NCBI RefSeq assembly: GCF_000227725.2 | Contig: NZ_MU255056.1 | Coordinates: forward strand, 51,005-101,240 | Source of the DNA: Thiorhodospira sibirica ATCC 700588 | GTDB lineage: Bacteria; Pseudomonadota; Gammaproteobacteria; Ectothiorhodospirales; Ectothiorhodospiraceae | Reading direction: 5' to 3' | Length of the DNA: 50,236 nt | In this document: one piece after another, positions 7,547 through 50,236 of the stretch | Numbering within the stretch: position 1 is the first letter of the stretch | Layout: each line of letters begins with the position of its first letter | The notes under the pieces: model-generated | Seen by the model: the letters and a program-made list of their open reading frames with translations, nothing else | Databases searched by the model: none | What the model was told of the DNA's origin: nothing | Position numbers and translations under genes: made by a program

Positions 7547-7735
7547 AGCAAGGGTTCTGCGTTGAGGGCCTGCAAGATATGCTGATGGCCGGTTCGGCGG
7601 AGGTATGCGCAAACAGCATCCATTGCGTGGCCTGCGGGCAGATGCGCGCCGTCACCAAAGCGGCGGCGGTGCTGATAAAGCCATCAATCAGCGTCGGCAG
7701 GCCCATCTGTGCGCTCGCGGCTGGCTTCACGCGCC
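7547..7735 (-). pseudogene. cobT: Fragment of cobT (DMB phosphoribosyltransferase), broken at both ends and frameshifted
   Basis: Read on the minus strand, the piece encodes AQMGLPTLIDGFISTAAAL followed by HTSAEPA, matching the internal GxPxxxDGF(I/L)S region of CobT and its H-x-SAE motif. Near 7588-7592 the reading moves by one base: the other frame then gives HQHILQALNAEPLL, the usual continuation (family form GH..L..L.LEPLL). So one base was lost. The N-terminal ~240 and the last ~60 residues are absent. The fragment directly follows cobB in the operon direction. It was cut off at the hypF end before the IS5 arrived, since sequence beyond the IS does not continue CobT. Confidence 0.8.
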
Positions 7736-9022
7736 CAGTAATGCGGCCACGGCCTGCGGACTGGATGGAAAATACCAATGCACATAACTCGCGGTCACTC
7801 GGCCTGTGCGGTATACCGCCTCGCGATGGGGCCGGCCGTTGGGGCATACGGTCTGGGCCCAGGGGGTAAGCGGCGTGTGCATGGTGGAATAATGAAAGCG
7901 ATGCCCGCGCAGTGTGCCTTCTGGCAGGCTTAGCGCCTGTGGCCCCAGACCGGCCAGGCGCTTTTGCATCCGCGCCTCACCGGGCAAAATTCCGGCCAGC
8001 GGCGCCGTGTGTCCAGCCAGATCGGATAAATATTCCAGCAGATACAGCATCCCGCCGCATTCTGCCAGCACGGGCCGACCGGCCTGCACATGCCCGGTGA
8101 GATCAGCTTTGAGCTGTTGATTGGCGGCTAATGCCGATAAATGCAGTTCGGGATAGCCGCCGGGCAAATAAACGGCATCCACGGACGGCGGCAATCCTTC
8201 CCCGGCTACGGGTGAAAAAAAGTGCAAATGCGCACCCAGCTGTTCAAGGGTTTCCAGATTGGCCGGATAGATAAAGGCAAAGGCGGCATCACGCGCCACG
8301 GCGATATGCTGCCCGGCCAGCAGAGGCGGGGGCGGGCTGTCGGCGACCGGCGCAAAGGCCACTGGCGGTGGCAAGGCAGGCTGGGTCCACTGCAGTTGGG
8401 CCGCCGCGTGATCCAGGCGCGTTTCCAGGTCCGCCACTTCACTTGCTTGCACCAAGCCCAGATGACGGCTCGGCAGGGCAAAATCCGGCCTGTCTGGCAG
8501 ATAGCCAAAGGCGGTCAAGCCCGGCGCCAGGCCTTCTTGCAGCAGCGCATAATGGCGCTCTCCGCTGACCTGATTGGCAAAGACCCCGGCCACCGGCAAT
8601 CCGGGGCGATACGTTGCCAGACCGTGGGCAATCGCGGCAAAGGTCTGCGCCATCGCGGCCCCACGGATGCACAGCAGCACAGGAATCCCCAGCGTGCAGG
8701 CGATGTCGGCACTGGAGGGCTGGCCATCAAACAGCCCCATCACCCCTTCCAGCAGAATCAGATCTGCCTCGCCGGCCGCCTGATACAGACGCCGGCGGGC
8801 ATCGGCCTCGCCAGTGATCCACAAATCAATGGAATGCACTGGCGCGCCGCTGGCCTGCTCGTGAATCATCGGATCAAGGAAATCTGGCCCGGCCTTGAAC
8901 ACGCGCACCCGCCGCCCCTGTTGGCGGTGATAACGGGCCAGTGCCGCCGTCACGGTGGTCTTGCCCTGCCCGGACGAGGGCGCCGCCAGCAGCAGCGCGG
9001 GACAATGACGCAGCAGACTCAT
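7727..9022 (-). CDS. cobB: Cobyrinate a,c-diamide synthase (CobB/CbiA)
   Basis: Glutamine-dependent amidation of the corrin a and c side chains using ATP. About 431 residues: an N-terminal dethiobiotin-synthetase-like ATPase with P-loop APSSGQGKTT and KAGPDFLDP, and a C-terminal class I glutamine amidotransferase with PGGYPELH, nucleophile Cys in AECGGMLYL and a late HWYF motif. The ATG at 9022 overlaps the cysG stop as ATGA, the best coupling arrangement; an in-frame ATG three codons earlier (9031) is possible. Last intact gene of the corrinoid operon; a cobT scrap follows. Confidence 0.94.
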   Translation of the reverse strand: MSLLRHCPALLLAAPSSGQGKTTVTAALARYHRQQGRRVRVFKAGPDFLDPMIHEQASGAPVHSIDLWITGEADARRRLYQAAGEADLILLEGVMGLFDGQPSSADIACTLGIPVLLCIRGAAMAQTFAAIAHGLATYRPGLPVAGVFANQVSGERHYALLQEGLAPGLTAFGYLPDRPDFALPSRHLGLVQASEVADLETRLDHAAAQLQWTQPALPPPVAFAPVADSPPPPLLAGQHIAVARDAAFAFIYPANLETLEQLGAHLHFFSPVAGEGLPPSVDAVYLPGGYPELHLSALAANQQLKADLTGHVQAGRPVLAECGGMLYLLEYLSDLAGHTAPLAGILPGEARMQKRLAGLGPQALSLPEGTLRGHRFHYSTMHTPLTPWAQTVCPNGRPHREAVYRTGRVTASYVHWYFPSSPQAVAALLGA

Positions 9023-10422
9023 GCGGTGCATCCGGGGGCGCGATACTGCGGACTGAGCGTGACCGTCTGGCCAATAATCACCAGACCGGGATGGGTGTGA
9101 TCCATCGGTGGCTGGCGGCTGAGATGTGCGAGCGTGCTAAAGGTCAGTTGCTGATTCGCCAGACTGCCATTTTGCACAATAGCCACCGGCGTTTCCGCTG
9201 CCATTCCCGCACGCAGTAAACGCTGACACAGACTTTCCAGATGGAAAACCCCCATATAAAACACCAGCGTATAGCCCGACTGGGCCAAGGCTGGCCAATC
9301 AAAGGCGCTGGCTTCATCGGCACAATGTCCGGTTAAAAACAGACAGCCCTTCGCTACCTCACGATGGGTCAGCGGAATCCCGGTACTGGCCGCACAGCCG
9401 GTGGCTGCGGTAATCCCCGGCACAATATGAAATACAATCCCGGCGGCCTGCAAGGCCAGCATTTCCTCTCCGCCGCGTCCAAATACGAAAGGATCGCCGC
9501 CTTTCAGGCGTACTACCTTATGCCCGGCCTTGGCGTATTCGATCAATAACTGATTGATGGTTGCCTGTGTGCTGGAGTGATGCGCTCGCGCCTTGCCCAC
9601 ATAATAACGCCTGGCATCTTTACGCAAGAATTTAAGGATTTCAGGGCCAATCAGGCGATCATAAATCACCACATCGGCCTGCTGCATGACACGCAACGCT
9701 TTTAAGGTCAATAGCTCAGGATCACCAGGTCCGGTACCGACTAAATAAACCTCACCCTGCGTAGCATAAATATCTTTTGCAATACGCTGCTTTACCAACT
9801 CACACGCATCATCATAGCGTTGTGAAAACACTGTTTCTGCAATCACGCCATCCACAATTTTTTCATAAAAATGTCGTCGTTTATGTATATCAGGAAAGTG
9901 GGTTTTTATGCTTTCACGAAAGCGCTGCAACAGCTTTGCCAGATCACCATAATGCTGCGGAATCAGCGCATCCAGATAGGCACTGAGACGACGCATCAGC
10001 AGCGGTGACGCCCCACCACTGCACAGAGCAATCTGCACAACGCCGCGCCGCAAGGTGTTAGGCAAAAGCAGGGTGCTGAGATGACCAGGATTGGCAACAT
10101 TGACCGGAATATTCAAGCGCTGGGCCACCTGGGCAATGCGCGTATTCAGCACCGCATCATCCGTTGCCGCAACAATCAGCTGATAATTCTGCATATCTTC
10201 TGCCGTATAGCAGCGTGGCTGATACTGTATCTGTGCAGGATAGGCCTGCATCAGCCGCTGCATGGGGGCACTGAGATCCGGGGCAATGAGCGCCAAGTGT
10301 GCGCCGGCCTCCAGCAGCTTTTTGGCTTTGCGTGTTGCCACGCGCCCGGCACCCACGACCAGACAGCGACAGGACGTGGTTGCCAGAAAAACCGGCAACC
10401 ATCCGCTTACATCATGCGCCAT
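9019..10422 (-). CDS. cysG: Siroheme synthase CysG: precorrin-2 dehydrogenase/ferrochelatase plus uroporphyrinogen-III methyltransferase
   Basis: 467-residue bifunctional enzyme. The N-terminal half (about 1-210) is the NAD-binding dehydrogenase/chelatase with VGAGRVATRKAKKLLEAGA, AATDD and SGGASPLLMRRL. The C-terminal half (about 215-460) is the SAM-dependent methyltransferase that makes precorrin-2: LVGTGPGDPELLTLKALR, RLKGGDPFVFGRGGEE, VPGITAATGCAASTGIPLTHR and the TGH motif. In this operon the methyltransferase feeds corrinoid synthesis, while the N-terminal half can divert precorrin-2 to siroheme. It starts 37 bp after cobJ with no clear Shine-Dalgarno and overlaps cobB. Confidence 0.95.
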   Translation of the reverse strand: MAHDVSGWLPVFLATTSCRCLVVGAGRVATRKAKKLLEAGAHLALIAPDLSAPMQRLMQAYPAQIQYQPRCYTAEDMQNYQLIVAATDDAVLNTRIAQVAQRLNIPVNVANPGHLSTLLLPNTLRRGVVQIALCSGGASPLLMRRLSAYLDALIPQHYGDLAKLLQRFRESIKTHFPDIHKRRHFYEKIVDGVIAETVFSQRYDDACELVKQRIAKDIYATQGEVYLVGTGPGDPELLTLKALRVMQQADVVIYDRLIGPEILKFLRKDARRYYVGKARAHHSSTQATINQLLIEYAKAGHKVVRLKGGDPFVFGRGGEEMLALQAAGIVFHIVPGITAATGCAASTGIPLTHREVAKGCLFLTGHCADEASAFDWPALAQSGYTLVFYMGVFHLESLCQRLLRAGMAAETPVAIVQNGSLANQQLTFSTLAHLSRQPPMDHTHPGLVIIGQTVTLSPQYRAPGCTA

Positions 10423-10459
10423 ACATCATTTTACAAACAAGGTATATCAAAGCGTAACC

Positions 10460-11710
10460 TCAAGCAGGATGTGATTTTGCAGAAAACACCAGTGCATCTT
10501 TTTGATCAATCGCATAAACGATTTCTCCCATTGGCGCACGCAATAACCAGGCGCTGTGAATGCGCCCCATATCTACACTGATCTGCATTGATTCATTCTC
10601 TATGGCTATCTGATTTTTATCGGGTTTAAAGTCACTGGCATTCACGCTTAAACATCCCGTCAATCCCTGATGAGGCAGCTTAATATCCACGCGCCCCCAT
10701 GCCTGAAAAATCGCCAAAATCTCTGCCTGATCTGCCAGACTGATTGGCGTAGCATGTATATTGAGCGCCTCTTTAGCTGCATCACGAAAAATAAGATCCA
10801 AAGCCATGCCTATCGGCATCTCAATAGCCTCGGTAATCTCTTCAAGTTTAGCATCTGATTCTTTTTTTAGCGTCGCAAAAAAATGATTTTTCCAGCCATC
10901 CAATCCCATGCGCAATGAATGACCCGGCCTCTCATCATTGATGCTGCGCTCATCGGAGATATTATATTTGTGCGCATAGCCACGCGGGGTCAGCATCAAG
11001 CCATCTTGCATATAACTTTGGCTATTGCCGATCAACACCAGGCTTTGCATATTGATAGCGGCGCTTTGCAAATCAGCCAAAGTACAGGCGTCGATATTCT
11101 GCGTTGAACGATACGCCGCCTGTACAATCATCACCGGGGTTTCAGGCTGGCGATATTGCGCAATAATGCGCTGAGCTTCGTTGATCTGTTCGGTGCGGCG
11201 GCGGCTTTTAGGGTTATACAAGGCGATCACATAATCAGCCTGTGCGGCGGCCTGCAAACGCTTGGCAATCACCGCCCAGGGGGTCAGCAAATCGGATAAG
11301 GAGATGGCACAAAAATCATGTGCCAGCGGCGCCCCGACCAGTGCCGCACTGGCTGATAGGGCGCTGATGCCCGGAATCAGCTCAACCGCGATGGCGTCCC
11401 CCGGACGCCATCCGGCCTGCAAAAATATCTCATACGCCAAGGAAGCCAAGGCATAAATCCCGATATCCCCGGAAGATACCAAGGCCACGCGGCAGCCCTG
11501 CTGTGCGTAGGCATAGGCCGCTTTGCAACGCGCAATTTCCTCCGTCATGCCGCTGGCGATCACAGTTTGTCCAGTGAGCAGCGGCTTACAGAGCTCAATA
11601 TAGGCGTGATAACCGATCACGATCTCGGCCTCACATAGCGCCTGCTGGGCCCGCACGCTCATATATTCCGGCGCGCCTGGCCCGAGACTGACAAGAAAAA
11701 TCTTAGCCAT
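10460..11710 (-). CDS. cobJ: Precorrin-3B C17-methyltransferase (CobJ/CbiH) with a ~170-residue C-terminal extension
   Basis: Residues 1-245 form the SAM-dependent methyltransferase that methylates C17 and drives ring contraction: FLVSLGPGAPEYMS, the SSGDIGIYALASLAYE motif, VELIPGISALSASAALVGAPLAHDFC and TPRGY at the domain end. Usual CobJ/CbiH proteins stop near there. Residues about 246-416 are additional, with few cysteines, so this is not the iron-sulfur extension known from CbiH60. The extension has a WGRVDIKL segment and a late IHSAWLLRAP segment; I see at most a weak likeness to heme-utilisation (ChuX/HutX-like) folds, unproven. It overlaps the CbiG C-terminal gene by 8 bp. Confidence 0.9.
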   Translation of the reverse strand: MAKIFLVSLGPGAPEYMSVRAQQALCEAEIVIGYHAYIELCKPLLTGQTVIASGMTEEIARCKAAYAYAQQGCRVALVSSGDIGIYALASLAYEIFLQAGWRPGDAIAVELIPGISALSASAALVGAPLAHDFCAISLSDLLTPWAVIAKRLQAAAQADYVIALYNPKSRRRTEQINEAQRIIAQYRQPETPVMIVQAAYRSTQNIDACTLADLQSAAINMQSLVLIGNSQSYMQDGLMLTPRGYAHKYNISDERSINDERPGHSLRMGLDGWKNHFFATLKKESDAKLEEITEAIEMPIGMALDLIFRDAAKEALNIHATPISLADQAEILAIFQAWGRVDIKLPHQGLTGCLSVNASDFKPDKNQIAIENESMQISVDMGRIHSAWLLRAPMGEIVYAIDQKDALVFSAKSHPA

Positions 11711-12113
11711 TTGCGCAATTCATATCTTGGCATGCAATCGCGAGTGTGACATGCTTTGCATCCTTCCCACGATATTTATATTTTTCCAATATCAGATTTT
11801 CCATAGTAGTTTGTGCGCCAAGCAACGCCGCAGCCTCAGCAACCGCCGGGGTTGCCATATAACGCTGTACCGTGCTGGATGGATTGGGTACACTGACCTT
11901 GGCTAAGATCGGCGCATCGAATATATGAAGTGGGCATTGCAGGTCATGTGCTAATTGCAGAATTGCCGGCTCTTCTGACTTTTTTTCAATCGTGGCAAGC
12001 GCAACAATCTCATGTATTTCAATATTCACCTGCTGCAACACATGATGTAAGGCTTCTTTTACCGTTTGTACGCTGGTATTACGATCACAGCCAATGCCAA
12101 TAACATACTTCAT
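11703..12113 (-). CDS. CbiG C-terminal domain protein (CobE-like)
   Basis: 136 residues matching the free-standing CbiG C-terminal/CobE domain: start MKYVIGIGCDRNTS (family form GIGCRRG.S), then VALATIEKKSEEPAILQLA, VSVPNPSSTVQRYMATPAVAEAAALL and a Lys-rich strand before the end. In full-length CbiG this domain follows the lactone-opening part that releases acetaldehyde from cobalt-precorrin-5A. Its ATG follows the TAA of the upstream cbiG gene with no gap and in the same frame, so the pair is one CbiG chain split by a single stop codon. Translation probably depends on reinitiation. Confidence 0.88.
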   Translation of the reverse strand: MKYVIGIGCDRNTSVQTVKEALHHVLQQVNIEIHEIVALATIEKKSEEPAILQLAHDLQCPLHIFDAPILAKVSVPNPSSTVQRYMATPAVAEAAALLGAQTTMENLILEKYKYRGKDAKHVTLAIACQDMNCANG

Positions 12114-12854
12114 TTAATTTCCAAATCCAGGACGATAAACGACCAGACGTTCATGTAATTGCTGCCATATATCAGGAGGGATGGCGGCGTGCGTTACCCA
12201 TAAAATACCCTGATATCGCTGTAAATTGACGGCGGTAAACTGGCTAAAGCGGGTGACATTTTCAGGCCAGGCATAAGGCCAGTCATACAAGCATTCATCC
12301 TCTTCGATCAAGGCAATCGGTTCTGCATTCACCAGCATTGCCGCGACGCGGGTTAGATTGATGTTTGGCGCCTCAACCTGCCAGCCTTGTTCACGTCCAA
12401 GAATATCCACACTAAAGGTCTGGCTGGCATCAGAAGCGGTGGTTAATATCGCCTGCGCATCGATTAAGGCTGCAATTTTTTCTGCATAGGCATTGGCATA
12501 GCCCACATGGCCGGAAAGCACCGGAATGACAAAACGCGTTTCCTGATCAATCACCAGCACGCCAGGATCTTGATATTTGCAGCGTAGATGGGGGGCCACT
12601 AAACGCACCACAGCGCCCAGCGCCAGAAAAAAAATCAGCTGATCAAAGGCTTTGAAAATCCGCTCTATATGTGTGTTAAGCGCATTTTCATACAGGCAAA
12701 TATCCCTGCTTTCAGGTTTTTTTGCAGACAGCAGATAACCGAATTTTTGGGGACAAAAAAGCGTTCCATGTCCTATTTTTAAAGCCAGTCTTTCGCCAGA
12801 CATGACGCCTTTTTTTGTGACCGTAATCAAGGCAACTTTTTTATCAGCCGTCAT
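12114..12854 (-). CDS. cbiG: Cobalt-precorrin-5A hydrolase, N-terminal and central CbiG domains
   Basis: 246 residues covering the CbiG N-terminal and central domains: FFLALGAVVRLVAPHLRCKYQDP and VIPVLSGHVGYANAYAEKIA (family form LSGH.GGAN..A..IA). CbiG opens the delta-lactone of cobalt-precorrin-5A, a step of the early-cobalt (anaerobic) route, which agrees with the CbiX cobaltochelatase in the same operon. The third domain is encoded by the next ORF after an in-frame TAA. The start overlaps cobI by 11 bp. Confidence 0.9.
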   Translation of the reverse strand: MTADKKVALITVTKKGVMSGERLALKIGHGTLFCPQKFGYLLSAKKPESRDICLYENALNTHIERIFKAFDQLIFFLALGAVVRLVAPHLRCKYQDPGVLVIDQETRFVIPVLSGHVGYANAYAEKIAALIDAQAILTTASDASQTFSVDILGREQGWQVEAPNINLTRVAAMLVNAEPIALIEEDECLYDWPYAWPENVTRFSQFTAVNLQRYQGILWVTHAAIPPDIWQQLHERLVVYRPGFGN

Positions 12855-13569
12855 GTTTGTTTTTTATCATCAGCAAAGATAGATAATGCATTTCTTTTGC
12901 AGACAGTGTTCTGAGATCATGCGTCACACGCTCCATCGACGTTCCCATCCGCTCACCAAAATACACTTCCGGCATTTTTTCAAGCAGATTGAGCTGTTGA
13001 AAAATCTCACGCCAGTGAGGCTTTATTTTCAATAAAACAATGGTATTAAAATTTGCAAACAGGCTATCCCACTGCACCAAAGCGCGCACTGCGGGTAAAA
13101 TCGCAATGGCATCATGCGCACACGCCAGCGGCTGATTGAGCTTCGCGGCGAGATCTTGATATGCACTGATACCGGGCAGGGTCACAATGACAGCAGCAGG
13201 GTTGATGCTTTGCAAGGTGCGCGCAAGATAAGTGAAGCTGGCATAGGTCGATGCATCACCTTCCACCAAAAAATGGACATCCTGTCCGCACAGCAAGCGA
13301 TCATTGACATAGGATGCGGCCTCAAGCCAGGCTTGCGTCAAACAGGCTGAATCATGGGTCATCGGAAACAGCAAAGGCGTGGCATTGATCGGAATCTTTA
13401 GCCCGCTGCGCTGGAGAATTTCCAGGGCATAACTGGGTCGATTGATCTGACTCACTGGATACACCCACTGGGCATTCTTTTGTAATATCTCCCAGGCTTG
13501 GCGGGTAATCAGTGCAGGATCACCCGGCCCCAGAGAAACACCATATAATCTGCCGAGTTCTTGCATCAT
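12844..13569 (-). CDS. cobI: Precorrin-2/cobalt-factor II C20-methyltransferase (CobI/CbiL)
   Basis: 241-residue SAM-dependent methyltransferase of the tetrapyrrole family. Visible motifs: LYGVSLGPGDPALITRQAWEIL at the N-terminus, the CGQDVHFLVEGDASTYASFTYL loop and TLPGISAYQDLAAKLNQPLA. It adds the C20 methyl group. CbiX in the operon suggests the cobalt-loaded substrate. Two adjacent ATGs are possible (13569 or 13566); the first overlaps the cobL stop as ATGA, indicating coupled translation. Confidence 0.92.
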   Translation of the reverse strand: MMQELGRLYGVSLGPGDPALITRQAWEILQKNAQWVYPVSQINRPSYALEILQRSGLKIPINATPLLFPMTHDSACLTQAWLEAASYVNDRLLCGQDVHFLVEGDASTYASFTYLARTLQSINPAAVIVTLPGISAYQDLAAKLNQPLACAHDAIAILPAVRALVQWDSLFANFNTIVLLKIKPHWREIFQQLNLLEKMPEVYFGERMGTSMERVTHDLRTLSAKEMHYLSLLMIKNKHDG

Positions 13570-14897
13570 TGCAGCTGGGATTTAAGCAGTGAGGACGTCT
13601 GTACAGACATCATCCAAACGGGATTATCTGCGACAAAGCGATGCATATTTAAAATAGGTCGCGTCTGTGCGCTTTGTAATTGTGTAATTTTCCAAGGAAC
13701 GTGCCATTTTTTTAAACACGCTATGGCGCTATGCAGATTTTCAAGCGTCACAAAATTCATGAGCAAAAAGCCGCCGTTTTTTAAACGATGCAGACTTAAA
13801 CGCATCAGCTCCGTGAGCTGGCCATCCGAACCGCCGATAAACACAGCATCAGGGGCGGGCCAATGTTCCATGCCATGAGGGGCTTTATTCAATACCAAGG
13901 AATAATTATATACACCAAGCTTGATCGCATTCTGTAAGGCAATCTTATAGGTTTTTGGATTTTTTTCAATCGCATAAACATAGCCATCCGGGCAAAGTCT
14001 TGCGGCCTCTAAACCCAGCGCACCAAAGCCCGCGCCGATGTCCCAAACAATGCTATCGGAACATAACTGCATCTGTGCCAGCGTCACTGCTCGCACGTCG
14101 CGCTTGGTCAACAGGCTGTGTGGATTGTCTGCCGGTTGATAGTTTTCGTCGTCCAAACCAAAGCGCACCACCGATTTCACTGCAGACATACGCCATAATA
14201 AAACCAGATTAGGCGCAGAGAATGTTATTTTGGCAATGTCAGAAACGCTGCAATTATCCACAATACGTTCAGCAGTTCCGCCGAGTTTTTCAAAGATGAC
14301 CATCTTGACACTATCCGCCAAACCTGCAGCAAGCAAAAGCCGGGCGATACGATCCGGACTATTTTCCGGACTGGTAAAAATCGCCATGTGTGCATGTGTA
14401 TGACAGGCTTTAATAATGGGATAAAGATGATGTTCAGGGCCTGCCGTCGGCGTCCATTCCCCATCATCCCGATGATGCACGGAAATAAGCTTGATATTTT
14501 GCCAGGGACGGTGAATCCGCGCACAGGCAAGTTGCACTGCTGATAGATTAGGAATCACCGTCGCACGGTATTTGCTGTTTTTGCTTAAATAGCCCCCGAT
14601 ACCATAACACAACGGATCACCACTGGCCAGTACCACAAGCTGCTTTTGCTGGGATAATGCAGTATCTATCCAGAGCGGAACCTGCGCTAAAACCTCGTCC
14701 AGTTCATAACATTGTGCGCTGGCCTTGATGTGCTCATGCACTAAGGCCAAAAGATGGACCGCCCCAATCACAACATCTGCATTTTGCAGGCATCGTAATG
14801 CCTGTTGGCACAGACTGGAAGAACCGTCCCCCAAGACACCAATAATATGGTAAGTGGGCGCATTGACAGGCGTGCAGGTATCTAAAGCGGTGTTCAT
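13566..14897 (-). CDS. cobL: Precorrin-6Y C5,15-methyltransferase (decarboxylating), CbiE-CbiT fusion
   Basis: 443 residues. The N-terminal ~230 form the CbiE methyltransferase half (YHIIGVLGDG, VVLASGDPLCYGIGGYL, VIPNLSAVQLACARI). The C-terminal ~200 form the Rossmann-type CbiT half (DIGAGFGALGLEAARL, AIEKNPKTYKIALQNA, APDAVFIGGSDGQ). Together they methylate C5 and C15 and remove the acetate carboxyl at C12. Both halves look intact. It starts 8 bp after cbiM and overlaps cobI at its stop. Confidence 0.94.
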   Translation of the reverse strand: MNTALDTCTPVNAPTYHIIGVLGDGSSSLCQQALRCLQNADVVIGAVHLLALVHEHIKASAQCYELDEVLAQVPLWIDTALSQQKQLVVLASGDPLCYGIGGYLSKNSKYRATVIPNLSAVQLACARIHRPWQNIKLISVHHRDDGEWTPTAGPEHHLYPIIKACHTHAHMAIFTSPENSPDRIARLLLAAGLADSVKMVIFEKLGGTAERIVDNCSVSDIAKITFSAPNLVLLWRMSAVKSVVRFGLDDENYQPADNPHSLLTKRDVRAVTLAQMQLCSDSIVWDIGAGFGALGLEAARLCPDGYVYAIEKNPKTYKIALQNAIKLGVYNYSLVLNKAPHGMEHWPAPDAVFIGGSDGQLTELMRLSLHRLKNGGFLLMNFVTLENLHSAIACLKKWHVPWKITQLQSAQTRPILNMHRFVADNPVWMMSVQTSSLLKSQLQ

Positions 14898-14905
14898 TTT
14901 AAGGT

Positions 14906-15529
14906 TTATGGTGTTGTGTTTTTCCAGAAGGTTCTGGCAAAAATATCAGGCTTTACTTTTTTGATCAAAATGACAGCAACTGCGCACAATAAGCCTTCAA
15001 TGATCATCACGGGAAGATGTGCAATGATGGCAAACTTGGCGATCATGAAAAACGCCTCACCTGAGAGCATCAGCACCAGCGCAATGCTCAAAGCCGTCAA
15101 GAGAATCGCACCGCCGCCGGCAATGGCACCCCACACAGCCGCAATCCGTATATCTGGATGACGCACGCCGTGAATACACAGGTAATGTAAAAGTACCGCA
15201 GGCAAGGCAACGCTTAAAGTATTGATCCCTAATACCGTTATTCCACCGAACCCCAAAAACACCGCTTGTAGAAGCAGCGCAATGAATAATGCAGGAAAGG
15301 CTGCAAATCCGAGTATCAGACCCGCCAGGCCATTCATCAAAAGGTGAACACTGGATGGCCCTAAAGGCACATGAATCAATGAAGCAATGAAAAATACCGC
15401 TGAGATAACCCCGGCAGCCGGGATATTTTCCAAGGTCAAGCGATGCAGGCCGATAGCAATCCCGGCAATGGCGAGAAGACTGCCTGCAATCAGTACTTCA
15501 TGTGTAACCACACCATCAACGATATGCAT
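14906..15529 (-). CDS. cbiM: Cobalt ECF transporter substrate-binding membrane subunit CbiM
   Basis: 207-residue integral membrane protein beginning MHIVDG, the N-terminal signature in which the amino group and His2 bind the metal ion in CbiM/NikM. GPSSVHLLMNGLAGLILG and GFGGITVLGINTL are further family segments, and about six hydrophobic helices are visible. CbiM normally works with CbiN, CbiQ and the ATPase CbiO; none is adjacent, so the energising module must be shared or encoded elsewhere. Its place right after the cobaltochelatase gene supports Co2+ uptake for corrinoid synthesis. No strong ribosome site is seen. Confidence 0.93.
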   Translation of the reverse strand: MHIVDGVVTHEVLIAGSLLAIAGIAIGLHRLTLENIPAAGVISAVFFIASLIHVPLGPSSVHLLMNGLAGLILGFAAFPALFIALLLQAVFLGFGGITVLGINTLSVALPAVLLHYLCIHGVRHPDIRIAAVWGAIAGGGAILLTALSIALVLMLSGEAFFMIAKFAIIAHLPVMIIEGLLCAVAVILIKKVKPDIFARTFWKNTTP

Positions 15530-15543
15530 AAATCTGGATTTTT

Positions 15544-16389
15544 TCAGTGTTGATGATGGCTGTGATGATGATCATGATGATGCGTATGATCAGACGCCGC
15601 TTTGTGTGGGCAACCATCACAAGGCATGTGATGCTCTGGTGTATCAGCCTGTGTGACGCGCTGCGAAACCAGCATGAAAATCTCGTCTTCAAAACCAAAA
15701 TAATCACCACAGCTAAACCGTATCTGCGGGTATTGTTGTTTTAAATGCTGTACTTGCCGCTGGATTCGTTCGATCAAAACGCCTGTAAATAAATAATACG
15801 GCAAAATAATCAGCTGCATCATTCCCAACCGTACCTGCTGCTGCACCACTGTTTCCAGGCGCGGATAGGTAATTCCGGTAAAGGCGATATCAATCATGTG
15901 CCGATGCTCTGTGCTTTCCTGTAGCCAGCGCGCTATTTTTGCCACATCGCCATTGGCCATAGGATCCGATGAACCACGACCGAGAAGGATAACTCCAGTG
16001 CGTGTGGGGTCAGGATGATCCAAATCACGCATGGCCTGCTGCAGGCGTCTTTTTAAAATCGAAAAAATGGCATCACAGGCGCCCAAAGGTGGCATATAAA
16101 TAAATTCAGTCTGCGGATATTGCCTACGCGCCGCTGCAATATATTCAGGGATCTCGGCTTTGACGTGACCCGCCGCGTTTAAGATCAATGGCACGACAAT
16201 GACACGTTCAGCCTGTTTGGCCGCTTTTTCCAGACCTTCATCGAGCAAAACCTCTGCAAGCTCGATAAAACAAACCTCAATATGCCATTCAGGCATCTGG
16301 CGTTGCCAGCGTTGGGCAAAGGCTGTGATTTCTTCATTACCCGGTGCATGACGTGATCCGTGACCCACTAATAAAATGGTTTCTTGCAT
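15544..16389 (-). CDS. cbiX: Sirohydrochlorin cobaltochelatase CbiX, long form with His-rich tail
   Basis: 281 residues with two CbiX/SirB-type halves. The first begins ILLVGHGSRHAPGNEEI with the metal-ligand His, and has VPLILNAAGHVKAEIPEYI with a second ligand His; the second has ILLGRGSSDP and LIILPYYLFTGVLIERI. It inserts Co2+ into sirohydrochlorin, committing to the early-cobalt route. The C-terminus holds CDGCPH followed by a run with about nine His in fourteen residues, a metal-storage or delivery tail as in long CbiX. First gene of the operon, about 295 bp downstream of the B12 riboswitch. Confidence 0.93.
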   Translation of the reverse strand: MQETILLVGHGSRHAPGNEEITAFAQRWQRQMPEWHIEVCFIELAEVLLDEGLEKAAKQAERVIVVPLILNAAGHVKAEIPEYIAAARRQYPQTEFIYMPPLGACDAIFSILKRRLQQAMRDLDHPDPTRTGVILLGRGSSDPMANGDVAKIARWLQESTEHRHMIDIAFTGITYPRLETVVQQQVRLGMMQLIILPYYLFTGVLIERIQRQVQHLKQQYPQIRFSCGDYFGFEDEIFMLVSQRVTQADTPEHHMPCDGCPHKAASDHTHHHDHHHSHHQH

Positions 16390-37315: not shown

Positions 37316-39289
37316 ATGTCTCCATTAAACGGTTCAATGCCTGCCATCAAGCTGTTGGTTGTTACCCGCGAACGGGCAGGTGACCAACGCTATGGTTTGG
37401 GCAAAAGTTTGCAACCCGTTCTGGCCGCGCTACGTGCCGAGGGAGTGTCCTGGCGCTATCTGTCTCAGGCAGATCTGGGGCCGCGCAGTCAGTTAGCGCT
37501 GCGTGGGCTGCAACGCGGGCTTGTCCCTTGGATGGCAAAAATACTGCGCGGTACGCAGACGGACGCGCTGGTGCAGGGGTTGTATGAACGCATCAATATG
37601 GGGCGTCTGGCGGCCAAAGTGGCGCGGCGTGAAGACTATACCCATGTGCATTGCCATGATCCCTTTATTGCCTGGGGATTTTTATGGGCGTCTCGATTGG
37701 CGCGCCGCCGTCCGCCGATACGCGTAGGCATCACCCAGCACGGCTTTGGCAGCTATACCCAGTCCTTTCACGAAGACGGCATTGCCTTGGGGCATCATGT
37801 CATGCGCTGGCTGCGCGCCAGAGAACGCTCGATTCTGGCGCAGCTTGATTGGGTCATCGCCCCTACACAGGCCGCTTTAGTACAGTTGCAGCGTGATTTG
37901 GCCCTGCCCGCACGGCCTGCACATTGGCATTGCATCCCGCACCCGTTGCCGCGCTTGCCAATACTTGAGCGCGCTTTGGCACGCCAGCATTTAGGCTGGG
38001 AGGCGCATGCCTGTGTTCTACTTGCGGTAGGCCGACTGGTGGCGCTCAAGGATTTTGCCACTCTTATTCAGGCCTTGGCGCAGCTGGCCCGGTCGGATGT
38101 GCGGCTGGTAATTTTAGGGGAAGGCGATGCCACACCTCTGCTGGACTTGGCACAAGGTCTGAATCTGAGAGATCGAGTACAGATTAGTGTCACAGACGAA
38201 ATGGCGCATTATTACGCGGCCGCCGATATCTATGTCAGCACCTCCTTGACCGAATCCTTTGGACTGGCCAATCTGGAGGCGATTAGCCAAGGCTTGCCGA
38301 CGGTATGCACTGCCGTGGGTGGGGTTCCCGAAGTGCTTGGTACGGGTGCCTGCCTGATTGCCCCCGGCGATGTCGCTACCTTGGTATACGCACTGGATAC
38401 GCTATTAAGCCAGCCGGTTATCCGCCATCACTATCAACAGCAGGGACAATTACGCACCCGTCAGTGGCCGACGGATGCCCACATCGTGCAGCAATATCTG
38501 GCCCTTTATCGGGGCAGCCCGCCCTCGCCTGCACCGGTTGTACACGCCGCCATTGCCGCTGAACTTGTCGAGGCGCAGATCAACGCCCGCCCGCCTTTTT
38601 GCAGTCCGGCACCGTTGCCATTTATGCCGGGGCTGCGGGTGTTGATCTTTGCCCCTCATGCCGATGATGAAAGCCTGGGGTGTGGTGGCACCATTTGCCT
38701 GATGCTGGCCGCTGGTATGGAGGTCTGCGTGGTCTGGGTCAGTGATGGATCGGCAGGCGACCCTTATGATTACTGCGACGGACAGGTGGTGGCGGTGCGT
38801 CAGCAAGAGGCGCTGTCGGCTGCAGGCATTCTGGGCGTCAAGACATCGGTGTTTCTGGGATTCAAAGACGGTGAATTGCGCTGTGAGCCCGCCTTGCGGC
38901 AGGCGATTTCGCAGCAATTCGAGCAATACCAGCCCGATTGGGTATTTGCGCCGCCGCCTCACGATGCACACCGTGATCATGCGGTGGTCAGTCATCTGGT
39001 ACGCCACTGCTGTACTGTGCATAACCCGGCAATACGGCTGTTTTTTTATGAAATATGGACGCCGCTCACGGCCAATTATCTGGTCGATATCAGCGCCGTC
39101 TATCCGCGCAAACAGGCGGCCATGGCAGCCTATGCCTTACCCTTGCGTTATATGAACTATCTGGAGATGGCTCAGGCGCTGGCGCGCTATCGGGCGATGC
39201 ATCTGGCAGACGGCAAAGGCTTTGCCGAGGCCTTTGCCGAGGTGCGTGGCGTTGAACACGGCCACGTTAGGTATAGCAGCGCGAGTTAA
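37316..39289 (+). CDS. Fusion of a GT4-type glycosyltransferase and a PIG-L/LmbE-type deacetylase
   Basis: 657 residues. Residues about 10-415 form a GT-B glycosyltransferase: VHCHDPF and ITQHGFGSYTQSF in the acceptor half, then LLAVGRLVALKDFATLIQAL and the nucleotide-sugar motif SLTESFGLANLEAISQGLP in the donor half. Residues about 440-650 are a PIG-L zinc deacetylase with APHADDESLGCGG (His448, Asp450, Asp451) and PHDAHRDH. PIG-L enzymes remove acetyl from GlcNAc conjugates, so the chain may attach and then deacetylate an amino sugar, in the manner of MshA/MshB or BshA/BshB thiol synthesis or a cell-surface glycan. Substrate unknown. Stop overlaps the convergent hcp stop. Confidence 0.88.
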   Translation: MSPLNGSMPAIKLLVVTRERAGDQRYGLGKSLQPVLAALRAEGVSWRYLSQADLGPRSQLALRGLQRGLVPWMAKILRGTQTDALVQGLYERINMGRLAAKVARREDYTHVHCHDPFIAWGFLWASRLARRRPPIRVGITQHGFGSYTQSFHEDGIALGHHVMRWLRARERSILAQLDWVIAPTQAALVQLQRDLALPARPAHWHCIPHPLPRLPILERALARQHLGWEAHACVLLAVGRLVALKDFATLIQALAQLARSDVRLVILGEGDATPLLDLAQGLNLRDRVQISVTDEMAHYYAAADIYVSTSLTESFGLANLEAISQGLPTVCTAVGGVPEVLGTGACLIAPGDVATLVYALDTLLSQPVIRHHYQQQGQLRTRQWPTDAHIVQQYLALYRGSPPSPAPVVHAAIAAELVEAQINARPPFCSPAPLPFMPGLRVLIFAPHADDESLGCGGTICLMLAAGMEVCVVWVSDGSAGDPYDYCDGQVVAVRQQEALSAAGILGVKTSVFLGFKDGELRCEPALRQAISQQFEQYQPDWVFAPPPHDAHRDHAVVSHLVRHCCTVHNPAIRLFFYEIWTPLTANYLVDISAVYPRKQAAMAAYALPLRYMNYLEMAQALARYRAMHLADGKGFAEAFAEVRGVEHGHVRYSSAS

Positions 39290-45911: not shown

Positions 45912-46538
45912 GTGATACACACCATGACGACACGCAAATTCTCTCGCCGCCGCTTTATCTGCAGTAGCGCTGCTCTGTTTGGCGGAGCGCTCATTCCATC
46001 AGTGACACCCGCGCTGAATATGAATTACCTGCAAATTCAACGCCTTCATCCTGTGCGTTTTATAGCAGGTCTGGTTTTTAATCTGGCGCAAGCCGTTGTT
46101 ATCAAGGTGGTTGCGGATGAGGTTGTGCAGGCATTAAAACAGCATGATTTTCGGTTCCTAGCCCAAAAAACCCGTTTAGAAACCTGTGATCATGGGATAT
46201 GCATTGAGGGCAGTAATTTTCAGCATCCAAACTACAAAGCCTCCATGGTTGTCCTGGGTGTTGCAAATTATGAGGCACACAAAGAGCGTCAGTTACGTTT
46301 GCTGATGGAAGATCAGGCACAACAGGAGCGTATCAGAGATACCCTGCAATACCTGCGTGATGAACGCATTGACGTTCGCTTGCACGGCGATCTGTATTCA
46401 CGCCGGGTCAGCCTGGATACGGAGCCTGATGATTTGTTTACGCTGGATTATTTGTTGATGGCCTCACATCAAGAGCAACATTATATGAACTTGATTGATA
46501 TTACCGGTACACAGGCTTTTAAAGGGTGGAATGCATGA
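45912..46538 (+). CDS. Exported protein with a Tat signal, function unknown
   Basis: About 204-208 residues. TRKFSRRRFICSSAALFGG at the N-terminus is a twin-arginine signal (SRRRFI with a following hydrophobic stretch), indicating export in folded form. The rest is not recognised; it contains a second hydrophobic stretch (VRFIAGLVFNLAQAVVIKVV), then a charged helical region and a C-terminal TLDYLLMASHQEQHYMNLID. GTG 45912 follows a GGGGGAG stretch closely; ATG 45924 begins the classical signal. Its stop overlaps the start of the leucine-rich-repeat gene as ATGA, so the two are co-translated. Confidence 0.75.
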   Translation: MIHTMTTRKFSRRRFICSSAALFGGALIPSVTPALNMNYLQIQRLHPVRFIAGLVFNLAQAVVIKVVADEVVQALKQHDFRFLAQKTRLETCDHGICIEGSNFQHPNYKASMVVLGVANYEAHKERQLRLLMEDQAQQERIRDTLQYLRDERIDVRLHGDLYSRRVSLDTEPDDLFTLDYLLMASHQEQHYMNLIDITGTQAFKGWNA

Positions 46539-47851
46539 TGCAAAAATATGGGATATGCGGGTCAATCATTGGGGCTATTCTGTGGGTCAGCATAAATGCT
46601 GCCTGGGCGGTTGATTTTACACGCGAAGAAATCGCCATTATGCACCGTCATGAGGTTCGCATGGCGCTACCCGATGAAAAACAGCCCTATGTGGTGCCGG
46701 TGGAGATTGCGCCAGCTTTGTTGGTATACACAGAGCTGCTGGATTTTTCCAACCGACCACTGTACGAAGCACCCGCCTGGCTTGCCCGCTTCAAAAACCT
46801 TCGTAAACTGGATCTTTCCAATACACGGTTATCGGCACAGGGGCTTGTTGCCATATTAAGCGAGTTGCATGAGCTTGAAGTCCTGAATCTATCCAATAAC
46901 CCGCTATTTGTAGAAGATGCCTCACTGGCGGAGCTATGGGCGCATCTGCCCCGTTTGTCTGAATTAAATTTATCGCAGACGGGTTTGCAGCCTGCTCATT
47001 TAGGCGCCCTCACCGCACTTAACCTGGTCAGACTGAATCTTGCAGATAATCCTGATCTGGGAGCGCTGGATGATTTAGGCATTGGGCAGCTTAATCGGCT
47101 GCGGGAATTGAATCTGTCCAATACCGGTCTTGCATCCATCAGTCCGCAACACCTACCCGCAGCCTCCCTGATTCGTCTGGACCTCAGCCATAATACATTA
47201 AAAGACATACCTTTTATGGATTTTGCAGCACTGGAGCAATTAAACATCCTGGGCAATCGGCGCGTTACTTTGGCAGAGCGCTACGCCAGTATCCTGAGTG
47301 TACCCCGCTTGATGCAATTATTGGCGCATGATGATGCCGTGATTCCCGATGGCTTGATAACGAAGCTAAACATGCAGGTCTATTCCATGGAAGATTTTAC
47401 CGATGCGGGTCATGGTACTGTGATTGATACGCGCACGAATCTGCAATGGATGCGTTGCGCCATTGGGCAAAGCTGGAATGGCTTCAGTTGTGCGGGTGAG
47501 GCGGAACGGGTGCCTTGGGCGGCCACCGCAAATGTGGTCAGAGCCGTCAATCGGCGATCCCAGGAAGGTGATTGGCGCTTACCTACCGTGACTGAACTGA
47601 AAAGCATCGTGTATTGTAATAACACACCGGATAACCCACCACAGCGCGGTATGCACTGTGCAAGCTTTGGTCTGTATGCCGGTGGCCCCAGCATCAATCC
47701 CCTGGCCTTTCCCAATGCCCCGGCGAGCTATTTCTGGTCACAGACGGCTTTAAAGGATGATTATAGCTGGGGTATTGATTTCAATAGCGGACGCGATCAC
47801 TGGGATTTGCAAGCGATCCCCGCACACATTCGTTTAGTCAGAACCCCCTGA
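46535..47851 (+). CDS. Secreted leucine-rich-repeat protein with a C-terminal Lcl/DUF1566-type domain
   Basis: 438 residues. A signal peptide (about 1-25, cleavage near AWAVD) precedes leucine-rich repeats at about 60-250 (LRKLDLSNTRLSAQGL, LEVLNLSNNPLF, LSELNLSQTGLQ, LVRLNLADNPDL, LRELNLSNTGLAS, LIRLDLSHNTLKDIP). Residues about 295-438 form an Lcl C-terminal/DUF1566-type domain: VIDTRTNLQWMRC, GDWRLPTVTELKSIV, FWSQTALKDDYSWGIDFNSG and a final HIRLVRTP. Such domains occur in bacterial surface and adhesin-like proteins. ATG 46535 overlaps the upstream stop and follows GGGTGG. Its last ~230 bp were duplicated downstream (48548-48800). Confidence 0.88.
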   Translation: MMQKYGICGSIIGAILWVSINAAWAVDFTREEIAIMHRHEVRMALPDEKQPYVVPVEIAPALLVYTELLDFSNRPLYEAPAWLARFKNLRKLDLSNTRLSAQGLVAILSELHELEVLNLSNNPLFVEDASLAELWAHLPRLSELNLSQTGLQPAHLGALTALNLVRLNLADNPDLGALDDLGIGQLNRLRELNLSNTGLASISPQHLPAASLIRLDLSHNTLKDIPFMDFAALEQLNILGNRRVTLAERYASILSVPRLMQLLAHDDAVIPDGLITKLNMQVYSMEDFTDAGHGTVIDTRTNLQWMRCAIGQSWNGFSCAGEAERVPWAATANVVRAVNRRSQEGDWRLPTVTELKSIVYCNNTPDNPPQRGMHCASFGLYAGGPSINPLAFPNAPASYFWSQTALKDDYSWGIDFNSGRDHWDLQAIPAHIRLVRTP

Positions 47852-47897
47852 AAGGTTGAAAGTCATATTATGGACATAATACTAAGAGCAGAAGTTG

Positions 47898-48545
47898 ATG
47901 CAATGCGTTACATATAGCATATTTAAGAAGCTGATTTTTTGTGTTTTATTGAGCTCTATAGTGATGGTGTTATCAGGCTGTTTGTCCTCACGCACCGACA
48001 AAGCTGAGCGCGATATTCAAGCGCTGGTTGCAGCGATGCATGCCTATCGCCTGGATGTCGGTGTCTATCCTGAACGTAATCAGGGTTTGCAAGCCTTGCT
48101 GGCAAGACCGCCGGGTGTGCGCAACTGGAAAGGGCCTTATGTCGGCAAGCCAAAAGACCTGATAGACCCTTGGGGTAATCCATATCAATACATAATACCC
48201 AGTCGGTGGGGCGCACCTTTTGATATTCTTACTGTAGACCCGACAGACCCGACTGGTCCACTTATTAGGGCTTGGCGGTTGGGCGATACAGAGGTACAAA
48301 TCAACCTAGGGTTGCGTTTTGCAAATGGGCGAAACGTTGCCCAGGATTATGCCGAAGCGGTTTACTGGTGGCGTATGGCTGCTGAGCAGGGAAATGCACG
48401 GGCACAATCTATTCTAGGGTTTTCATACGAAAAGGGGCGTGGTGTATCTCAAGATGCTACTGAGGCTGTGCGCTGGTATCGCCTGGCTGCCGAACAAAGT
48501 CATGAATCCGCCCGTCAAGCGCTTATTCGGCTTGGCGTAGATTAA
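47898..48545 (+). CDS. Lipoprotein fusing a GspG-like pseudopilin domain with Sel1 repeats, copy 1
   Basis: 215 residues. The N-terminus is a lipoprotein signal ending in lipobox LSGC, not a prepilin leader. Next (about 30-130) comes a GspG-type pseudopilin C-terminal domain: RDIQALVAAMHAYRLDVGVYP, NQGLQALLARPPG, WKGPYVGKPKDLIDPWGNPY and YIIPSRWGAPFDILTVDP, as in type II secretion major pseudopilins. The end (about 135-215) has two Sel1 repeats (NVAQDYAEAVYWWRMAAEQGNARAQ and GVSQDATEAVRWYRLAAEQS). The long N-terminal helix needed for pilin assembly is missing. Function unknown; a membrane-anchored scaffold is plausible. Start chosen by alignment with copy 2. Confidence 0.85.
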   Translation: MQCVTYSIFKKLIFCVLLSSIVMVLSGCLSSRTDKAERDIQALVAAMHAYRLDVGVYPERNQGLQALLARPPGVRNWKGPYVGKPKDLIDPWGNPYQYIIPSRWGAPFDILTVDPTDPTGPLIRAWRLGDTEVQINLGLRFANGRNVAQDYAEAVYWWRMAAEQGNARAQSILGFSYEKGRGVSQDATEAVRWYRLAAEQSHESARQALIRLGVD

Positions 48546-48547
48546 CC

Positions 48548-48800
48548 AACGGAACAGAAAACCCAAAGCAGCGCGGCTCACACCTCGCGAGATTTGGTTT
48601 ATGTCGTCACCCCAGCATCAATTCGCTGGTATTCTCCAATGCCCTGGCGCGCTATTTTTTGTCACAGGTAGCTTTAAAGGAAGGTTGTAGCTGAGAGTAG
48701 GAATTTGTAAGCTGTCCCTGCGCACATGTTTAATTAAGGCAGAAACGAAGAGCTATTGAAGGTCTGAAAACTATATTATGTACATTCTATACAGAGCAGA
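48548..48800 (+). pseudogene. Decayed duplicate of the 3' end of the leucine-rich-repeat/Lcl gene
   Basis: This 250-bp gap aligns with 47620-47895: CCCAGCATCAATTCGCTGGT (cf. CCCAGCATCAATCCCCTGGC), CCAATGCCCTGGCGCGCTAT (cf. CCAATGCCCCGGCGAGCTAT), GTCACAGGTAGCTTTAAAGG (cf. GTCACAGACGGCTTTAAAGG) and AGAGCAGAA before the next ATG. Many changes and a TGA break the frame. It is the scar of a tandem duplication that produced the second GspG-Sel1 gene. Confidence 0.85.
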
Positions 48801-48805
48801 AAATG

Positions 48806-49546
48806 ATGCATCGCATTACATACAGCATAATTAAACAACTGATTTTCTGTGTGCTATTAACTTCTCTACTGATAGCGTTATCAGGCTGTTCCTCACGCAC
48901 CGATAGAGCTGAACGCGATATTCAGGCACTGGTTACAGCGATGCATGACTATCGCATTGATGTAGGAGATTATCCTGAGCGCGATCAAGCTTTACAAGCT
49001 TTGTTAGCGAGTCCCCATGGTGCATCCAACTGGAAAGGGCCTTATGTGAAAAAAGTAAAAGACCTGATTGACCCTTGGGGTAATCCGTATCAGTATGCAA
49101 TACCCGGTCAATGGGGTGCGCCGTTTGATATCTTTACCGCTACCCCAGATGGATCGCCTATCAGAGCTTGGCAGATGGCTAATGCAGAGATGCAACTTAA
49201 CATGGGTTTTGATTATGCAAACGGTCATGATGTTTCCCAAGACCATGCCGAAGCCATTTATTGGTGGCATATGGCTGCTGAGCAGGGGAATGCGCAGGCG
49301 CAATCTATTCTAGGTTCCTTATATGAAGAAGGTCGCGGGGTTATCCAAGACGATGCCGAGGCAGTACGGTGGTTTCGTTTAGCGGCTGAGCAGGGTGATG
49401 CATTAGCGCAAAATAATCTTGGTATGATGTACCGCCGAGGTCGAGGTGTTCCGCAAGATAATGACGAAGCCTTATGGTGGTTTAGCTTGGCAGCCGAGCA
49501 AGGTCATATCCCAGCACAAAGGAACCTTAGACGTATGGGTCAATAA
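48806..49546 (+). CDS. Lipoprotein fusing a GspG-like pseudopilin domain with Sel1 repeats, copy 2
   Basis: 246 residues, paralogue of the preceding gene. Lipobox LSGC in IALSGCSSRTDRAERD; GspG-like domain with RDIQALVTAMHDYRIDVGDYP, WKGPYVKKVKDLIDPWGNPY and YAIPGQWGAPFDIFTATP; then three Sel1 repeats (DVSQDHAEAIYWWHMAAEQG, GVIQDDAEAVRWFRLAAEQG, GVPQDNDEALWWFSLAAEQG), one more than copy 1. The region between domains is shorter (one DPT-type repeat lost). An ATG three bases earlier is an alternative start. No T2SS gene lies in the window. Confidence 0.86.
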   Translation: MHRITYSIIKQLIFCVLLTSLLIALSGCSSRTDRAERDIQALVTAMHDYRIDVGDYPERDQALQALLASPHGASNWKGPYVKKVKDLIDPWGNPYQYAIPGQWGAPFDIFTATPDGSPIRAWQMANAEMQLNMGFDYANGHDVSQDHAEAIYWWHMAAEQGNAQAQSILGSLYEEGRGVIQDDAEAVRWFRLAAEQGDALAQNNLGMMYRRGRGVPQDNDEALWWFSLAAEQGHIPAQRNLRRMGQ

Positions 49547-49608: not shown

Positions 49609-50236
49609 TTAGGCTAAATTCCAAACCAACATTACCAGCATCGCTAAGCTTAAGGTGCCAAAACTGGCCATGCCCAGGGCTGCGAGGATGGCCCAACGCA
49701 AGTAATGGCCAATGATACGTTTTTCCGGTTCGGCGTCTGCCGATAAGATAAAGGGACGGCTGCGGTCGGGGCCGCGTGAGAGGAGGTGGACGGCGGGCAG
49801 GGTGGTGCGTTGGGCGCGAAGCATTAAGGCTTCCTGTGCGGCGGCGGCGCGCACGGCTTCCCAGGCATTTAAATCAATCGGCCCGCGGGGTGACAGGCCA
49901 AAACTGGCCATTTTTTCCGGGTCTTTTTTCCAGGCACGCAGGAGGCTGGTGATCTCGTCTTGCAGCGCGTGCTGATCATCATAGCCGTGGGTGCGAAAGT
50001 AGCCGATGGCATAGAGGCTGTCACCGCTTTCCAGGCGGCGTTCGGTGTAGCGATAGCTCCCCAGATCCAGAAAGGTGCGCGCCTGTGGCCCAAATTCAGG
50101 CCAGCGGCTGGAGCCACTCCAGCGATCTTGATGGTGTGCAAAGATGGTGGCTTTGTGTGGGTCTATCACGCACACGCCGGTGTCATCTTGCAAATAAAAC
50201 AGGTCTTCGCTGCGTCCTTTATCTACCGATTTCCAG
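49609..50236 (-). CDS. GIDE-domain membrane protein, 5' partial
   Basis: The frame is open to the right window edge, so the N-terminal part is missing. The visible ~208 residues begin with EDLFYLQDDTGVCVIDP, which, with a following ERRLESGDSLYAIGYF, matches the GIDE domain named after the E3 ligase MULAN/GIDE and found without RING in bacterial membrane proteins. The C-terminus is a membrane helix (WAILAALGMASFGTLSLAMLVM) ending in WNLA. Bacterial function unknown. Convergent with the GspG-Sel1 genes. Confidence 0.8.
   Translation of the reverse strand, partial: WKSVDKGRSEDLFYLQDDTGVCVIDPHKATIFAHHQDRWSGSSRWPEFGPQARTFLDLGSYRYTERRLESGDSLYAIGYFRTHGYDDQHALQDEITSLLRAWKKDPEKMASFGLSPRGPIDLNAWEAVRAAAAQEALMLRAQRTTLPAVHLLSRGPDRSRPFILSADAEPEKRIIGHYLRWAILAALGMASFGTLSLAMLVMLVWNLA

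Follow-up and report, generated by a model that had tools for sequence, protein, structure and literature searches.

Near the end of a 50,236-nt stretch of the Thiorhodospira sibirica genome (hereafter the window, meaning the whole stretch analysed), two tandem genes join a domain resembling GspG, the major pseudopilin of the type II secretion system (T2SS), to a lipoprotein signal and Sel1 repeats. This raises the question of whether the encoded proteins are still pseudopilins and, if not, what a pseudopilin domain may do on a lipid anchor. A preliminary description had reported two ORFs here, each carrying an LSGC lipobox, the hallmarks of GspG and two or three Sel1 repeats, and this was confirmed by re-reading the ORFs and by Pfam searches (Table 1). 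The T2SSG domain scored 85.2 bits in copy 1 and 87.6 bits in copy 2 (Pfam cut-off 21), and the Sel1 repeats scored 69.2 bits over two stretches and 113.4 bits over three (Pfam cut-off 30.7), all far beyond chance. The motifs WKGPYV and DPWGNPYQY were unchanged between the copies. Read directly, both copies also fitted the lipobox pattern, which we take to be [LVI][ASTVI][GAS]C, with Cys28 followed by Leu or Ser and in neither case by Asp. The 215 residues of copy 1 are counted from an ATG, with a possible TTG start just 5' of it at 47895, and copy 2 has a second possible ATG at 48803.

Table 1 Features of the tandem lipoprotein genes and the genes upstream of them, in window coordinates.
Feature	Position	Strand	Support
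Orphan, first gene of the apparent operon, 208 aa, twin-arginine-like signal (SRRRF) by eye; overlaps the LRR-Lcl ORF	45912..46538	+	
LRR-Lcl: leucine-rich repeat (LRR) protein with Lcl_C (DUF1566), signal peptide by eye	46526..47851	+	Lcl_C 1e-24
Copy 1: predicted lipoprotein, T2SSG (GspG) domain and 2 Sel1 repeats, 215 aa	47898..48545	+	T2SSG 3.9e-24, Sel1 3e-19
Copy 1 lipoprotein signal peptide and lipobox LSGC (Cys28 at 47979-47981)	47898..47981	+	direct sequence reading
Copy 1 T2SSG domain, residues 30-113	47985..48236	+	Pfam
Copy 1 Sel1 repeats (2)	48294..48503	+	Pfam
Decayed second copy of the Lcl_C gene 3' end, 2 stops	about 48545..48706	+	repeat comparison and Lcl_C search
Copy 2: predicted lipoprotein, T2SSG domain and 3 Sel1 repeats, 246 aa	48806..49546	+	T2SSG 6.9e-25, Sel1 3.1e-33, model
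Copy 2 lipoprotein signal peptide and lipobox LSGC (Cys28 at 48887-48889)	48806..48889	+	direct sequence reading
Copy 2 T2SSG domain, residues 30-118	48893..49159	+	Pfam, PDB sequence search, model match
Copy 2 Sel1 repeats (3)	49184..49507	+	Pfam

The N-terminal part of each mature protein (the head) was related to GspG in both sequence and predicted fold. GspG relatives of copy 2 in the PDB ranged by sequence from 2kep (E 1.4e-14) to 1t92 (PulG, 2.6e-12) and weaker matches. An AlphaFold model of copy 2, calculated from the two window proteins aligned with 39 GspG proteins from named records, had a mean pLDDT of 87.7 and a pTM of 0.66. Its residues 26-126 aligned with Vibrio cholerae EpsG (3fu1; Z 14.1, rmsd 2.3, 98 residues) and its residues 124-246 with Sel1 proteins such as 8sxq (Z 17.2, rmsd 1.8, 122 residues). 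The structural comparison therefore matched the head to GspG, and the earlier proposal of a GspG globular domain with a lipobox in place of the prepilin leader stood, given the T2SSG scores above cut-off, the EpsG match of the model and the LSGC motif. When copy 1 was folded from the two window sequences alone, without the GspG rows, the head reached a pLDDT of only 33-44, so that the confidence of the head model comes from the GspG rows and the copy 1 model adds nothing independent on the fold; the sequence match of the head to GspG is independent of those rows. Structure-database matches of the Sel1 part included HcpC, AlgK, MotX, PA5086 and the Pseudomonas immunity protein Pa5087 (5jkp, Z 12.5), and short Sel1 and tetratricopeptide-like (TPR) solenoids generally matched the copy 2 model at similar Z.

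Several features that pseudopilins depend on were missing from both proteins. The class III prepilin leader (G/F-T-L-x-E) was absent from copies 1 and 2; a loose prepilin motif was present in 80/80 GspG relatives (the best 80 of at least 116, from named genomes) and in 65 of 66 further T2SSG frames, the remaining one being truncated where its stretch ends. Both copies also lacked the membrane helix with Glu5, and by comparison with the 39 GspG rows their long helix beyond the anchor is shorter by five or six residues. The acidic, calcium-binding-type C-terminal loop, whose exact calcium-ligand positions are presumed here, appeared mostly lost: a column that is Asp in 33/39 GspG rows is Pro or Leu in the window copies, one that is Gly in 37/39 is Thr or Asp, and alignment columns 137-142 are gaps in both. 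This loss is partial, as copy 2 retains an Asp where 30/39 GspG rows have one, and columns 139-141 are absent from 18/39 GspG rows as well. The calcium site in the C-terminal region of pseudopilins has been reported to matter for folding and assembly (PMC6692295). Against the GspG equivalog model TIGR01710, the two proteins scored 63.5 and 69.0 bits, below the cut-off of 88.85. The match was in register from residue 17 in copy 1 and only from residue 29 in copy 2, which touches on whether a prepilin helix was converted in place into a signal peptide. Because the prepilin site, the Glu-bearing membrane helix and most of the acidic loop are missing, and the equivalog scores fall below cut-off, the head is, judged by sequence, GspG-like, yet neither protein is a pseudopilin. 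Contacts of GspG within filaments run largely via the N-terminal helix, and the absence of the membrane helix, together with that of most of the acidic loop, speaks against either protein being built into a filament.

We then asked how widely this domain combination occurs. A query spanning the head-to-Sel1 junction (copy 2 residues 60-165) was searched against three overlapping genome sets, each of which included the T. sibirica genome itself: 47 from the order (all of one family), 369 from the class and 398 from the phylum. In the class and phylum searches at most 12-13 first-look candidates per genome were scored, with matches listed best first. Among the matches listed, the full junction was matched by the two window copies only (243.9 and 162.1 bits), and the next-best match (66.6 bits) was plain GspG. 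Eleven distinct listed rows continued across stops as far as the junction or beyond it; six of them were read directly, and on the profile test all eleven were likewise plain GspG. With the full-length query, 96 relatives yielded head-only or Sel1-only matches elsewhere among those listed, many of the Sel1 matches covering the Sel1 half alone. An initial motif scan had detected GspG in 29 of 53 loci and drawn a blank in the other 24, and a profile scan was redone on 72 loci, a set that counts some places twice, with the window copies as positive control. A T2SSG frame occurred in 66 of these loci and Sel1 only in the other six. The 66 T2SSG frames ran no more than 7 residues beyond the domain and none (0/66) held a Sel1 repeat, so that among the loci tested both profiles met in one frame in the window copies only. 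The best 80 of at least 116 named-genome relatives gave the same result: these end 21-53 residues past DPWG, and a Sel1 profile that detects both window copies found a repeat in 0/80.

Phyla beyond that of the organism were covered through the named-genome contig search together with plasmid, phage and viral collections. Among plasmids, 23 records matched the junction query and none reached 80% coverage; a named feature was borne by 7 of the 12 rows shown, in each case GspG. The full-length query matched 12 plasmid records at 80% coverage or more, and three of these, plus one below 80%, proved to be Sel1 only on inspection. There was no phage match to the junction query, and a peptide-pattern scan of viral contigs, sensitive to close relatives only, gave none. 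Among the matches listed the fusion occurred in one genome, and we regard it as a new arrangement of known parts that is specific to this lineage. The preliminary description had suggested looking for the same domain pair in other genomes and for co-occurring T2SS or LRR-Lcl genes. No such pair was found among the matches listed for the order, class and phylum sets, and the T2SS genes found in the organism's own genome lie elsewhere than at this locus. Since no homologue of the same architecture was found, neither was one with a prepilin site replacing the lipobox.

The two lipoprotein genes arose by duplication of a larger unit. The copies are 68% identical, and a repeat unit with a spacing of 896-924 nt, overlooked in the preliminary description, starts inside the upstream LRR-Lcl gene and consists of a lipoprotein gene with the 3' end of the LRR-Lcl gene. 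Copy 2 has one more Sel1 repeat than copy 1. Between the copies, dN/dS was 0.142 over 196 codons (counting method, one pair), with 0.155 for the head and the lowest value, 0.073, for the Sel1 part, where dS was saturated. The dS between the two genes was about 1.2, and the Lcl remnant has acquired two stops while both flanking lipoprotein frames are intact; from these comparisons both copies look constrained. The 84-nt Lcl remnant segment shows 81% identity, in tension with the dS of the genes; either it is the part that has been preserved best, or there has been gene conversion.

The origin of the head was less distinct. In the tree, the window pair sat on a long stem (1.09) and grouped, with low support (45/78), with alpha-proteobacterial GspG and the second GspG of the T. 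sibirica genome. The GspG of genome G012 was nearest to the head by identity (52%), but given the long stem and the weak group we name no donor. GC content at 45-49 kb is low (48-50%); 9-17 kb of the same window is low too (45-54%), so composition was not taken as a sign of an island. On the - strand, positions 7727-16389 carry anaerobic cobalamin genes (tetrapyrrole methylases, CbiG, CbiM, CbiX and a CobB/CobQ-like amidotransferase), including a 443-aa ORF in which a tetrapyrrole methylase is followed by merely weak methyltransferase matches. A single 657-aa ORF at 37316-39289 combines a group 1 glycosyltransferase with a PIG-L deacetylase domain.

The cluster is flanked by an AntA/ORF6N antirepressor-like gene on one side and a gene that is transposase-like by eye on the other. 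The latter ORF (- strand, L102 5614-6654, just past the window end) has an IS5-type start by eye; it crosses masked N and ends in the window ORF 49609-50235, and probably represents two genes read together. The Tat-signal ORF that opens the apparent operon matched no Pfam family and, with a query minus the first five residues, was found in 1/369 class genomes, namely its own. No Gsp family was found among the neighbouring proteins scanned. The tandem genes thus lie outside the gsp operon, and T2SS genes occur elsewhere in the genome. These included GspG at C4:1391428 onwards, followed by three ORFs carrying prepilin leaders (GspH-J, judged from gene order and by eye), GspL at C4:2108662, a GspE/F-like pair by eye, and seven matches to the ATPase family PF00437, which also holds type IV pilus ATPases. 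The second GspG, of the MRYLGESKTKTAQ type, is located on another contig (L100 9091-9534, C5:213093) with a MerR/transposase-like pair on one side and an acyltransferase-like gene on the other (all named by eye), and with no other pseudopilin gene seen by eye in 15 kb. Lcl_C is expanded in this genome (13 matches, query and remnant included), with several domains in a single 1107-aa frame (C4:2512941-2516572, L173). In all six regions that hold the other Lcl_C places, no T2SSG motif or Sel1 gene was found, and the Sel1 matches of the genome fell in four places, none within these regions.

We tentatively propose, at a chance that we put a little short of even, that the two proteins are outer-membrane-anchored periplasmic adaptors with a head unable to polymerise, and that LRR-Lcl is their likeliest candidate partner. 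Following export, each lipoprotein would receive its lipid at Cys28 and then probably be transferred to the outer membrane, on its inner leaflet. Such sorting is suggested by the Leu or Ser, rather than Asp, beside Cys28, as under the +2 rule of Escherichia coli Leu or Ser after the lipobox Cys leads to the outer membrane. The GspG-type head, followed by the short Sel1 solenoid, would then face the periplasm. With its membrane helix and prepilin site gone and its acidic loop cut down, the head could presumably not enter a filament. Sel1 solenoids bind proteins, and head and solenoid may each hold one partner at the outer membrane, forming a fixed protein-binding adaptor. LRR-Lcl is the likeliest such partner because it is encoded just upstream and the end of its gene was co-duplicated. 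This adaptor role draws on the T2SSG and Sel1 matches, the model, the absence of a prepilin motif, the loop loss, dN/dS, the co-duplication with LRR-Lcl, and Legionella Lcl (see below). Against it, the other Lcl_C places have no T2SSG or Sel1 motif alongside, the pair occurs in a single genome so that conservation of the neighbourhood has no second case, the confidence of the head model is tied to the GspG rows, and the loop loss is partial.

Whether the head retains a link to secretion separates two further explanations. In a T2SS (lspF) mutant of Legionella pneumophila, the trimeric adhesin Lcl is found neither in supernatants nor on the cell surface (PMC11162425). LRR-Lcl shares the C-terminal Lcl_C (DUF1566) with this protein and has leucine-rich repeats where Legionella Lcl has a collagen-like stalk; by analogy, T2SS secretion of LRR-Lcl is imaginable. 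The preliminary description had proposed that the lipid-anchored module might bind a T2SS pseudopilus or periplasmic substrates. The head might dock on or regulate the T2SS by contacting the pseudopilus tip, the periplasmic domains of the secretin or an exoprotein, with the lipoprotein delivering LRR-Lcl or the Tat-signal protein, or capping or limiting the pseudopilus. The homology of the constrained head to GspG, the T2SS dependence of Legionella Lcl and the presence of T2SS genes and ORFs in the genome, from GspG, GspL and the GspH-J-like ORFs to the PF00437 ATPases and the GspE/F-like pair, would fit such docking. It is nonetheless unlikely, as the lipoprotein genes do not adjoin the T2SS genes found, much of the acidic calcium-site loop and the N-terminal helix that is the main filament contact are gone, and no other genome searched, many of them with GspG, shows the protein among the matches listed. 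A more specific version, in which a pseudopilin has turned into an outer-membrane-anchored, non-polymerising head that passes LRR-Lcl cargo to the T2SS pseudopilus or caps it, is quite unlikely. The missing acidic loop and the shortened long helix would instead suit a head that is a structural spacer, a stray domain with no secretion link, leaving the Sel1 part to work with an envelope partner. The low dN/dS of the Sel1 part (dS saturated) and the many Sel1 matches in relatives that are the Sel1 half alone agree with this. A mere spacer would hardly be expected to keep its core under the constraint seen in the head, with WKGPYV and DPWGNPYQY identical in both copies, and we regard it as somewhat unlikely.

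The Sel1 part could also point to immunity, with the tandem periplasmic proteins neutralising a toxin, like the Sel1-repeat immunity proteins that counter type VI effectors, and the head merely holding the solenoid. Downstream of vgrG4 there are five Sel1 genes, of which Sel1E protects against the VgrG4 effector (PMC7108748); Pa5087, as noted, was among the matches of the Sel1 part. The similar Z reached by short Sel1 and TPR solenoids in general weakens the latter point, and no toxin family reached its curated cut-off (Pfam, NCBIfam) in the lipoproteins, LRR-Lcl or the Tat-signal ORF. Some LRR effector models matched LRR-Lcl far under cut-off and through the repeats, PADLOC found none, and the combination of LRR with Lcl_C would seem closer to an adhesin than to a toxin, so that an immunity role is improbable. 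Finally, occurrence in one genome only, among the matches listed, and the antirepressor-like and transposase-like (by eye) genes on the flanks would be expected of a chance fusion without function. Unlike the intervening Lcl remnant with its two stops, both frames have stayed open since a duplication as old as the dS implies, at a low dN/dS, which makes this explanation very improbable indeed.

Set beside known systems, the proteins combine familiar parts in a new way. They share with GspG (PF08334, TIGR01710) the region given in Table 1, the WKGPY and DPWGNPY motifs and the EpsG fold, and differ in having a lipobox and a Sel1 solenoid, in lacking the prepilin leader and Glu5 helix, and in the reduced loop. 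Several Sel1-repeat envelope proteins are exported or lipid-anchored; HcpC, AlgK, MotX, PA5086, Pa5087 and Sel1E have a Sel1/TPR-like solenoid as the window copies do, and we know of no pseudopilin head on any of these. The nearest parallel is the mitochondrial GspG of some protists, in which a pseudopilin domain also carries a C-terminal addition of about 100 aa (PMC8134430). There, a transmembrane domain comes first and no homologues of the extra part are discernible (PMC8134430), whereas here the anchor is a predicted lipid and the addition is Sel1. A non-canonical T2SS has been described in which a second GspG is named as a major pseudopilin, and the available part of that report describes no such fusion (PMC6971210). 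The preliminary description knew of no system with this design, in agreement with a search of titles and abstract openings in the open-access literature (most subscription literature being outside its scope), where neither a lipid-anchored GspG domain nor GspG with Sel1 was found among the papers listed.

To our knowledge, the way in which substrates are recognised by the T2SS has yet to be settled. Were the cargo-passing or capping version true, these proteins would represent a substrate adaptor made from the secretion machine's own piston subunit. If the head has no link to secretion, they would provide a clean case of a filament subunit that lost polymerisation and was reused as a scaffold domain. 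A constrained GspG head on a predicted lipid anchor would also be a ready reagent for asking what the globular domain of a pseudopilin binds besides itself.
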